Shown: positions 27,724 to 30,796 of the stretch, piece after piece | How the letters are laid out: the number at the start of each line of letters is the position of its first letter | Position numbering within the stretch: the stretch's first letter is position 1 | Assembly: GCF_025398335.1 (NCBI RefSeq) | Contig: NZ_JAODOO010000024.1 | Coordinates: forward strand, 1 to 43,687 | Source of the DNA: Clostridium sp. CX1 | Lineage (GTDB): Bacteria; Bacillota; Clostridia; Clostridiales; Clostridiaceae | Length of the DNA stretch: 43,687 bases | Reading direction: 5' to 3' | Notes under the pieces: generated by a model | What the model was told of the DNA's origin: nothing | The model's database searches: none | The model's input: the letters and a program-made list of their open reading frames with translations, nothing else | Position numbers and translations under genes: made by a program

Positions 27724-27933
27724 TTATTCAACGCTTACTACTTCATATCCAGCATCTTCGATTGCAGCTTTTATAGTTTCATCACTAAGCTCTCCACTAG
27801 CTTCAACTACTGCAGTCTTTGATTCTAAATCAACTGTCACACTAGTTACCCCATTAAGCTCTTCTAAAGCATTTTTAACATGATTAACACAATGTCCACA
27901 ACTCATTCCTTCAACTATTATCTTCTTTTTCAT
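27724..27933 (-). CDS. copZ: Copper chaperone (HMA domain)
   Basis: 69-residue ferredoxin-like HMA protein with G-M-S-C-G-H-C-V (Cys at 11 and 14), the CopZ form of the metal site. It binds Cu(I) and hands it to CopA or CsoR. It lies 127 nt after copA in the same direction and closes the operon. AAAGGGGAA stands before the ATG. In contrast to CopA's second domain, its site has two ordinary cysteines. Confidence 0.92.
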   Translation of the reverse strand: MKKKIIVEGMSCGHCVNHVKNALEELNGVTSVTVDLESKTAVVEASGELSDETIKAAIEDAGYEVVSVE

Positions 27934-28060: not shown

Positions 28061-30511
28061 CTATACTGTAGGAGTAAAACCTTTTAATCTTAATGCATTT
28101 GTAAGTACAGACACAGAACTTAGACTCATAGCAAGAGCTGCTATCATTGGATTTAGCAGTGGACCTCCAAAGATATATAAGATACCCATAGCTACTGGTA
28201 TTCCTAATGTATTATATCCAAATGCCCAGAATAAATTTTGCTTTATATTGGTTATAGTTTTCTTGCTTAAGTCTATTGCTGTAACAACATCCTTCAAATC
28301 ACTTCTCATAAGAACTATATCTGCAGACTCCATAGCAACGTCTGTTCCAGACCCTATGGCTATACCTACATCAGCTTGAGCTAGAGCCGGTGCATCATTT
28401 ATACCGTCCCCAACCATGGCAACTTTTTTATTTTCAGCTTGAAGTTTTTTAACCTCATTTGCTTTATCCTGTGGTAAAACCTCTGCAAGTATCCTATCAA
28501 TTCCCACTTGCTTTGCTATAGCCTCAGCAGTTTTCTTGTTGTCTCCAGTTATCATAGCAACTTCTATTCCCATTGAATGAAGCTTTTCTATGGCCTTTTT
28601 ACTATTTTCTTTCACTGTATCAGCTACTGCAACTATACCAATTAACTTATTTTCAAGTGCTACATACATTGGCGTCTTACCTTCTGCTGCTAATTTATTT
28701 GATGTGTTCTCTAAATTTTCTAAAGAAATATTACTTTCAACCATAAGCTTTCTGTTTCCCAAAAGCACTTTTTTGTTATCTATAGTAACTTCTATTCCAT
28801 GACCTGGTATTGCCTTAAATAAATCTATCTTCTTAAACTCTAATCCTCTTTCTTCCGCTCCTTTTACTATAGCTTCTCCAAGAGGATGCTCTGAACCCTT
28901 TTCCGCAGATGCTGCTAGTTGAAGCAAGTAGTCTTCTGTTATATCTGATGTAGTTACAATATCTGTAACCTTTGGCTTACCCTCTGTTATCGTCCCTGTC
29001 TTGTCAAATACTATAGTTTGTATTCTATGAGCCGTTTCAAGGGCAGTACCACTCTTTATAAGCACACCATATTCAGCACCTTTCCCAGTGCCCACCATTA
29101 TAGCTGTCGGTGTAGCAAGTCCAAGAGAACATGGGCAAGCTATTACAAGAACAGATATAAATATTGTAAGAGCAAATACTGCTGACTCACCATATAAAAG
29201 CCAACCTACTGAAGAGACTAATGCTAATATAATTACCACAGGAACAAAATAACCAGATATTACGTCTGCAAGTTTTGCTATTGGAGCTTTAGAGCCCTGA
29301 GCTTCTTCTACTAATTTAACAATTTGAGCTAATGCTGTATCCTTACCAACTCTCGTTGCCTTATATCTTATAGAACCATTTTTGTTTATACTAGCTCCTA
29401 TAACCTTATCTCCAACAGTTTTTTCCACCGGTATGCTTTCACCAGTTAGCATTGATTCATCTACAGAGGTAACTCCCTCTACTACTTCCCCATCTACAGG
29501 AACTTTTTCACCTGGTTTTACTAGTACTATGTCTCCAACTTCTACTTCCTCTATAGGAATTTCTTCTTCTTTTCCATTTCTAATTATAATGGCAGTTTTA
29601 GGTGCAAGTCCCATTAGCTTTTTTATAGCCTCAGAAGTTTTTCCTTTAGCTACTGATTCTAGGTATTTACCTAAAGTTATTAATGTAAGTATCACACCTG
29701 CAGATTCAAAGTACAAATGATATTCATAATTTCCTGAAAGTATTTGTACTACTGAAAAAACACTGTATAAAACTGCTGCTGTAGAACCTATTGCTATAAG
29801 TGAATCCATATTAGGGCTTCCTTTAAATAAAGTTTTAAAGCCTATGGTGAAATACTTTTTACCAGCAACTACAATAGGTATTGATAGTATGAGCTGTATA
29901 ACTGCATATACCTCCTGGTGCATCATGGGATCAATAGCTGGTGGCAGCATATAATTAAACCATTCTAGAATCATTGGTCCCATAGCAATTATAAGAAGTG
30001 GAACTCCAAATACTGCCGAAATTATAAACCTGTTCCATAAACTCTTTATTTCCTGCTCTTTTTTATCCTTATCCTCATCTACAGTAATTTCTTCTTCTAA
30101 AGCCTTATAACCTGCTTTTTCTATTGCCTTTTTAATATCGGATATTCTAACCTTTGAAGCATCAAAGCTTACAGTTAACTTCTCTGACGCAAAATTTACT
30201 GTTGCCTCATATACTCCTTCTAATTTTCCTACTGCCTTCTCGACAGTTTTAACACAGGCTGCTCAGGTCATTCCCTCTACTTTTAAAGTTTTTGTGATAG
30301 CTTCAACTAAAGCCTTATAGCCAGCCTTCTCCACAGCCTTTTGTATATCTGAAAGTGATAACTTTGAGTCATCATAATTTACAGTTAACTTTTCTGTAGC
30401 AAAATTCACATTTGCTTCAGTAACTCCGTCCAATTTTTTTGAAGCTCTTTCTACTGCCTTGGCACAAGCTGCACAGGTCATGCCTTCTATCTTTAAGGTT
30501 TTACTTGACAT
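28061..30511 (-). CDS. copA: Copper-exporting P1B ATPase with in-frame UGA (selenocysteine candidate)
   Basis: 816-residue CopA read through one UGA. HMA domain 1 has C13-A-A-C16. HMA domain 2 has U83-A-A-C86, the UGA being at 30263-30265; relatives have cysteine. All 93 codons between the UGA and the next Met are open and encode the rest of HMA2 and the first helix region. Further on: C459-P-C461, D503-[16 protein letters not shown], and helix residues Y-N and M-S-L-S-S typical of Cu(I) pumps. A hairpin with its loop 21 nt after the UGA is present. Without readthrough the cell would make an 82-residue fragment and perhaps a truncated pump. csoR lies 18 nt upstream, copZ downstream. Confidence 0.85.
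30231..30247 (-). other. SECIS-like hairpin in copA
   Basis: On the minus strand ACTGTC pairs with GGCAGT (one U-G pair) around the loop GAGAA, which begins with G 22 nt after the UGA. The corresponding bases of HMA domain 1, which has a Cys codon, do not form this hairpin. Confidence 0.5.
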
Positions 30512-30529
30512 TACTTTCCCTCCTTCATG

Positions 30530-30796
30530 CTAATCTTTCATAAGCTTAGAAAGTAAATCCATTATCTCATCTACTTTCTCCTCTCCACTATTATGAATAA
30601 AAGCGTCTTTTACGCAGTGATTAAGATGTTGCTTTAATATAAGCATATTAGCTTTCTTTAAAAGAGACTGCGCTGCGATTATTTGATTGGATATATCCAT
30701 ACAGTATCTTCCATCTTCTATCATTTTAATTATGCCTTCAATTTGACCCTTTGAAGTTTTTAGGGATTGAAGTGCTTTTTTTCTTTCTTCGTTCAT
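30530..30796 (-). CDS. csoR: Copper-sensing repressor
   Basis: 88-residue all-helical DUF156 protein. C32, H57 and C61 have the same spacing (25 and 4) as the Cu(I) ligands Cys-His-Cys of Mycobacterium CsoR, so this is a copper sensor and not a formaldehyde or persulfide sensor. Cu(I) binding releases DNA. GGAGG lies before the ATG and overlaps the edge of its own operator. First gene of csoR-copA-copZ. Confidence 0.93.
   Translation of the reverse strand: MNEERKKALQSLKTSKGQIEGIIKMIEDGRYCMDISNQIIAAQSLLKKANMLILKQHLNHCVKDAFIHNSGEEKVDEIMDLLSKLMKD

Follow-up and report, generated by a model that had tools for sequence, protein, structure and literature searches.

Selenoproteins of known function are, in the accessible part of the source, mostly oxidoreductases (PMC2398784), and it would be unusual for an ion pump to bind metal through selenocysteine (Sec). 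One such family has already been listed among the UxxC selenoproteins: Cation-transporting ATPase E1-E2 (heavy metal), with ABB15669.1 as its reference, whose description, in the portion available, gives neither the metal nor the position of the domain; the roles of such selenoproteins in metal detoxification need further study according to the part of a 2026 review that was available (PMC13188914). Two further selenoprotein models, NF041115 (UxxU metal-binding) and NF045683 (MerT/CopZ fusion), contain a metal-binding domain that resembles the heavy-metal-associated (HMA) domain, and neither represents a P-type ATPase. A copper-pump gene that is recoded by another route is copA of E. coli, in which a programmed frameshift in the 5' part yields a 70-residue putative chaperone, as given in the accessible part of the report (PMC5009743). 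Our searches of open-licence papers found none on a clostridial CopA with Sec in its HMA domain. We examined the copA gene in a window (the whole stretch of DNA analysed, 43,687 nucleotides) from Clostridium sp. CX1, whose genome, G000, comprises 4.24 Mb in 71 contigs. The gene has csoR upstream and copZ downstream (PF02583 and PF00403 neighbours), which is the context of a copper locus, and the features of the locus are as follows.

30530 to 30796, minus strand: csoR-type metal-sensing repressor gene, 88 aa (PF02583, 4.3e-27; the csoR name is given from family and position)
30519 to 30524, minus strand: Shine-Dalgarno sequence AGGAGG for copA, 7 nt before the ATG
28061 to 30511, minus strand: copA, P1B-type copper-exporting ATPase with a single in-frame UGA (TIGR01511 and TIGR01525 downstream of the UGA)
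30314 to 30499, minus strand: HMA domain 1 (HMA1), Cys-x-x-Cys (PF00403, 1.2e-21, residues 5-66)
30104 to 30289, minus strand: HMA domain 2 (HMA2), interrupted by the UGA (UGA-A-A-C; PF00403, 4.4e-15 on the post-UGA piece, profile positions 10-62 of 62; 5' boundary estimated from HMA1)
30263 to 30265, minus strand: in-frame UGA, codon 83, at the first Cys of the HMA2 CxxC, probably read as Sec
30231 to 30247, minus strand: hairpin predicted as a bacterial SECIS, with a stem of 6 bp and the loop GAGAA starting 21 nt past the UGA
27724 to 27933, minus strand: gene for a copZ-type copper chaperone of 69 aa with an intact CxxC (PF00403, 8.7e-21; TIGR00003 above cut-off, 27727-27933)

By motif and model the G000 CopA belongs to the UxxC E1-E2 kind, of which ABB15669.1 is known to us by description only: both are heavy-metal P-type ATPases with a UxxC, which in G000 is UGA-A-A-C, and TIGR01525 was passed by the post-UGA piece (692 bits, cut-off 346.25). 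The listed family is described with neither metal nor domain, whereas in G000 the predicted Sec lies in HMA2 of a csoR-copA-copZ copper locus. The sequence-only reading had called this, if confirmed, a rare or undescribed selenoprotein pump. Rare it is: the kind had come to light in computational surveys, and the support that comparison gives in the present case is unusually clear. The word undescribed has to be given up because the family had already been listed. The HMA1 piece resembles both NF041115 and NF045683, at scores below their cut-offs (66.5 against 95 and 43.2 against 375, respectively). The CopA of Clostridium akagii (L010) has the same two-HMA layout and length and is 77% identical, but is of Cys type, with Cys and not UGA in HMA2, and a search of the C. 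akagii genome gave no tRNA-Sec match at E<=1e-7. Like E. coli copA, the G000 gene would be recoded in its 5' part; in E. coli, however, the frameshift leads to the short product, whereas readthrough of the UGA in G000 would lead to the long one.

On re-reading, the copA frame comprised 817 codons including the terminal TAG and was open except for the TGA at 30263-30265, as the sequence-only reading had it, and neither a frameshift nor a second internal stop was found in that frame. The UGA, in the context VEGMT-UGA-AACVKTV, falls on the first Cys of the HMA2 GMTCxxC, and the equivalent codon of HMA1 is TGT; both statements had been made earlier and both were read again in the sequence. The earlier claim that the gene carries no other damage also held, in that the ATPase motifs CPC, DKTGT, and GDGIND were all readable, with the CPC of the transport path unaltered, and the post-UGA piece passed TIGR01511 (652.9 bits, cut-off 397) as well as TIGR01525. 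With NF007952, the model for the E. coli-type CopA equivalog, the same piece remained at 696.9 bits, below a cut-off of 1316 that applies to the whole protein, and the G000 CopA is not assigned to that equivalog. Solved copper-exporting ATPase structures matched the post-UGA part (3j09, 1.3e-197), which contains the remainder of HMA2 together with the E1-E2 ATPase and hydrolase domains; the pre-UGA part is a complete HMA domain. Restart of translation past the UGA was considered and rejected, because no in-frame start with a Shine-Dalgarno sequence was found between the UGA and codon 200. A mechanical listing of open reading frames cuts the pump into fragments of 82 and 640 residues, and such genes may therefore be missed or filed as broken. 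Among the matches listed, this was the only CopA in G000 at E<=1e-150.

The sequence-only reading had pointed to the Sec-decoding genes as the place to look, and all four were present in G000. Because control genomes also give weak hits in searches for these genes, a match was counted only if it exceeded the cut-off. The tRNA-Sec (selC) scored 62.7 bits (cut-off 47) and was also called as tRNA-SeC by ARAGORN; selB scored 380.2 bits (cut-off 242.25), selA 646 (cut-off 267.9), and selD 398.5 (cut-off 125), and all four lie on contig C10 within approximately 5 kb. The selD gene itself has an in-frame TGA, in the context UAAKIG, so that G000 has another gene expecting Sec at UGA. Over the order, tRNA-Sec exceeded the cut-off in 104 of 225 genomes, including all four that have a UGA-type copA, and tRNA-Sec, selB, and selA did so in each of the seven UGA-copA genomes tested (these four, G588, G291, and the genome of L029; G677 lies outside this count). 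All seven also had a selD match that exceeded the cut-off and carried one TGA, with the Sec position itself read in four. At locus L001 a phage-type tyrosine integrase gene (PF00589, L001:1706-2830, minus strand) lies about 110 nt from the tRNA-Sec at L001:1501-1597, as if selC were the attachment site of a mobile element.

The UGA might instead be read as some other amino acid, through a general change of the code or a suppressor tRNA. The stops in the window are compatible with such a change: of those of the 15 other genes checked, 14 were read (copZ is left out, its reference having been given without the stop), and they comprised 13 TAA, one TAG, and no TGA, so that the window itself does not show UGA as a stop. 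Nevertheless, the other window genes had no internal UGA, a weak point as the genes were picked as open frames, and, more strongly, the UGA occurs at a position of Cys/Sec exchange in a genome with a canonical Sec system and a UGA in its selD. We regard a changed code or suppressor as scarcely credible.

Reading of the corresponding codons in other CopA genes gave a consistent picture. The HMA motifs of the named CopA loci, which are the best 80 of 574 found, contained Cys codons only in 75 cases and UGA in one, namely L029 of a Tepidibacter MAG, whose otherwise open frame has the UGA at the HMA2 codon that corresponds to codon 83, and no motif appeared in a simple scan of the other four. With the C. 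akagii CopA protein as query we searched the order (225 genomes, 216 matching) and even draws of the class (391 genomes, 122 matching) and the phylum (398 genomes, 54 matching), with thresholds that differed between searches, and every listed row showing a stop was read individually. Among the matches listed, CopA-internal stops occurred in G000, G208, G168, G173, G588, G291, and G677, which together with L029 make eight, and in all eight the stop was a UGA that takes the place of the first Cys in the CxxC of an HMA domain; six of the eight lie in HMA2 and two in HMA1 (L106 of G588 and L135 of G677). The alignment of orthologues that had been proposed earlier thus gave either Cys or UGA at codon 83, with no other CopA-internal stop among the rows read. 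Apparent internal stops in other genomes were set aside: those in G134, G169, G042, G030, and G647 were in fact terminal, those in G161, G727, and G781 were 5' of the gene, and those in G441 and G510 terminate, by our reading, a distinct HMA frame that lies upstream. Two of the genomes, G168 (L100/L110) and G173 (L101/L111), have both a Sec-type and a Cys-type CopA, and these pairs are natural material for testing selenium-dependent use of two pumps.

Bacterial SECIS elements are described, in the accessible part of the review, as having a G in the first two loop positions, a loop 16-37 nt from the UGA, a loop of 3-9 nt, and a stem of 4-16 bp (PMC13188914). Our hairpin scan was built on these limits and widened to loops of 3-14 nt and internal bulges. 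The copA hairpin, ACUGUC-GAGAA-GGCAGU, is a predicted SECIS within the published limits (loop GAGAA, 21 nt, 6 bp) and was found as the sequence-only reading had drawn it, with an energy of -6.5 kcal/mol, whereas the best hairpin of this type in HMA1 reached -1.8. As evidence standing alone it was rejected, being within the range of Cys sites: the 69-nt stretch did not differ from its shuffles (z = 0.05; 104 of 200 folded at least as well), and 19% of 204 cysteine control sites folded as well as the copA hairpin. What makes it informative is that such a hairpin recurs: each of the eight CopA UGA sites had one of -5.4 kcal/mol or below with a loop of 3-8 nt starting 18-25 nt past the UGA, a result in line with the earlier suggestion of a hairpin after the UGA. 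Among the Cys sites, 16 of 115 reached that energy in the GC-matched set and 30 of 147 in the unmatched set. The eight sites differed from the GC-matched sites with a Mann-Whitney p of 2e-5, and in a first scan the seven then known differed from the 204 control sites with p 0.0009; these p-values are indicative only, because controls and Sec sites include related sequences treated as independent.

The hairpins of individual genes showed stems conserved through compensatory changes. That of L106 (ACGGUU-GAGAA-GACCGU) has the same loop and a 6-bp stem as in G000, and between the two one pair differs at both bases and two pairs differ at a single base with the stem kept, even though they belong to different families and different HMA domains (HMA2 in G000, HMA1 in L106). 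L029 and L107 have a common 8-bp stem in which one pair is changed on both sides. The L106 HMA1 segment past the UGA resembles the G000 HMA2 segment in both the hairpin and the peptide V-x-T-V-E-K-x-V-G-K-L, a likeness that suggests that the two converged on one SECIS or else that an HMA module was transferred. Applied to selD, the motif filter caught the Sec site at four of seven loci, and three of these four gave a hairpin; the G000 selD site gave none under the same limits. The sites missed by the filter were those of L116, L118, and L120, the last giving only a chance hit at a TAG, and with this chance hit included the selD rows did not clearly surpass the Cys controls (p 0.07). Since neither the G000 selD site nor the ZntA-like site described below had a hairpin, the limits are neither necessary nor decisive.

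The ATPase parts of 100 CopA sequences, including the seven Sec forms then known, were placed in a maximum-likelihood tree by a quick method. Six changes were needed, three of them forced by well-supported branches, and the Sec forms showed no significant clustering (an equally low count in 61 of 500 shuffles). Sec seems, on this comparison, to have appeared or disappeared more than once at this one metal ligand, whether in HMA1 or in HMA2; we consider this repeated exchange of Cys and Sec more informative than membership of the family itself, and if it is correct the HMA domains would be well suited to studying how Sec replaces Cys in the binding of metal, as opposed to redox catalysis. The CopA rows nearest to G000 are of the same genus and have Cys at the site: L097, whose ATPase part is 95% identical, and L090. 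Consequently, the UGA is probably young in this lineage, and by sequence comparison Sec was probably gained recently there, although loss in L097 and L090 may have occurred instead. The number of HMA domains varies within the genus: L089, L091, L093, L094, L095, and L097 have longer CopA frames of 892-904 codons, and five of these six have three GMTCxxC motifs; L094 has two, as do G000, L090, and L096.

That the closest relatives read Cys, and that the UGA sits at one tip of a small group, is what would be expected had a normal Cys-type copA been hit by a plain nonsense mutation or been misread in sequencing. Such a stop, however, would have had to strike the first Cys of an HMA CxxC, as UGA does in seven other CopA genes, with no frameshift, no second stop, and the Sec machinery in place. 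Moreover, the hairpin is absent at this site from both L097 and L090, and the amino-acid changes specific to G000 were clustered over it: 5 of 21 fell within the 20 codons past the UGA, the stretch that contains the hairpin (P 8e-5, codon 83 excluded), but only 2 of 12 by a stricter count in which the whole codon had to be shared by both relatives. In the ATPase part, codon changes found only in G000 were 99 synonymous versus 8 amino-acid, and pairwise dN/dS was 0.044 and 0.052. These substitution patterns show that the protein past the UGA is under strong purifying selection and that copA is not decaying, a record part of which may predate the UGA. A nonsense mutation or sequencing error is, in our judgment, very improbable.

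Taken together, the UGA at a metal-ligand position common to other CopA genes, the machinery, and the recurrence of a hairpin with a G in its loop indicate by comparison that the UGA in copA is very probably read as Sec at a metal-binding position, and we are highly confident that the gene encodes a selenoprotein form of the copper-exporting P1B ATPase with Sec inserted by SelB at the hairpin. SelB carrying Sec-tRNA(Sec) would recognize the hairpin, which begins 15 nt past codon 83, insertion of Sec at that codon would give the full-length pump, and the second cytosolic HMA domain would bind metal by Sec-x-x-Cys in place of Cys-x-x-Cys. Cu(I) is bound by the CxxC pairs of HMA domains, and P1B pumps are tuned by those HMA domains that are cytosolic. 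Compared with a thiolate, a selenolate is more acidic and a stronger nucleophile. A Sec-Cys pair could therefore bind Cu(I) and hold it tighter or be more redox-sensitive, with possible effects on affinity and regulation. With only one CopA found in G000 at E<=1e-150, full-length copper export would depend on the selenium supply. Since near relatives have Sec or Cys at one site, their Cu(I) affinity, their redox sensitivity, and the dependence of their copper export on selenium could be compared directly.

A Sec UGA generally also terminates a share of translation, and a dual output could be added to the Sec reading, with termination giving an 82-residue, chaperone-like HMA1 protein and selenium-dependent readthrough giving the pump. 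The pre-UGA part makes up a whole HMA domain (PF00403) and has a ribosome-binding site of its own, and the short product of the E. coli copA frameshift, as far as that report is available, offers a parallel (PMC5009743). On the other side, termination at the HMA1 UGA of L106 and L135 would leave only about 10-12 residues, a separate copZ already lies downstream of copA, and termination at a Sec UGA need not be used. We consider such a switch unlikely. Its fuller form, in which the UGA is a selenium-gated control point that releases a free HMA1 copper-binding protein at low selenium and the pump when selenium is present, coupling copper export to selenium status, we likewise consider rather unlikely.

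A DNA pattern search for GM(T/S)-UGA-A-(A/S)-C gave matches in 8 of 391 genomes of the class and 6 of 225 of the order, and a reversed-pattern control gave none in either. The 12 distinct places comprised six in CopA, one in a ZntA-like ATPase, and five due to chance (L123, L125, L126, L127, and L130), which were rejected as they had short frames only and no HMA domain in view; with five chance places among 12, the reversed control underestimates chance. The ZntA-like gene (L133/L139, minus strand, in G205 of the same family) encodes a ZntA/CadA-like P-type ATPase with UGA at the first Cys of an N-terminal GMT-UGA-ASC. No hairpin within the bSECIS limits was found at this UGA. The piece past the UGA scored 448.6 bits with TIGR01512 (cut-off 313.5), the G205 genome has a tRNA-Sec, and the gene possibly encodes a Sec-type zinc/cadmium pump.
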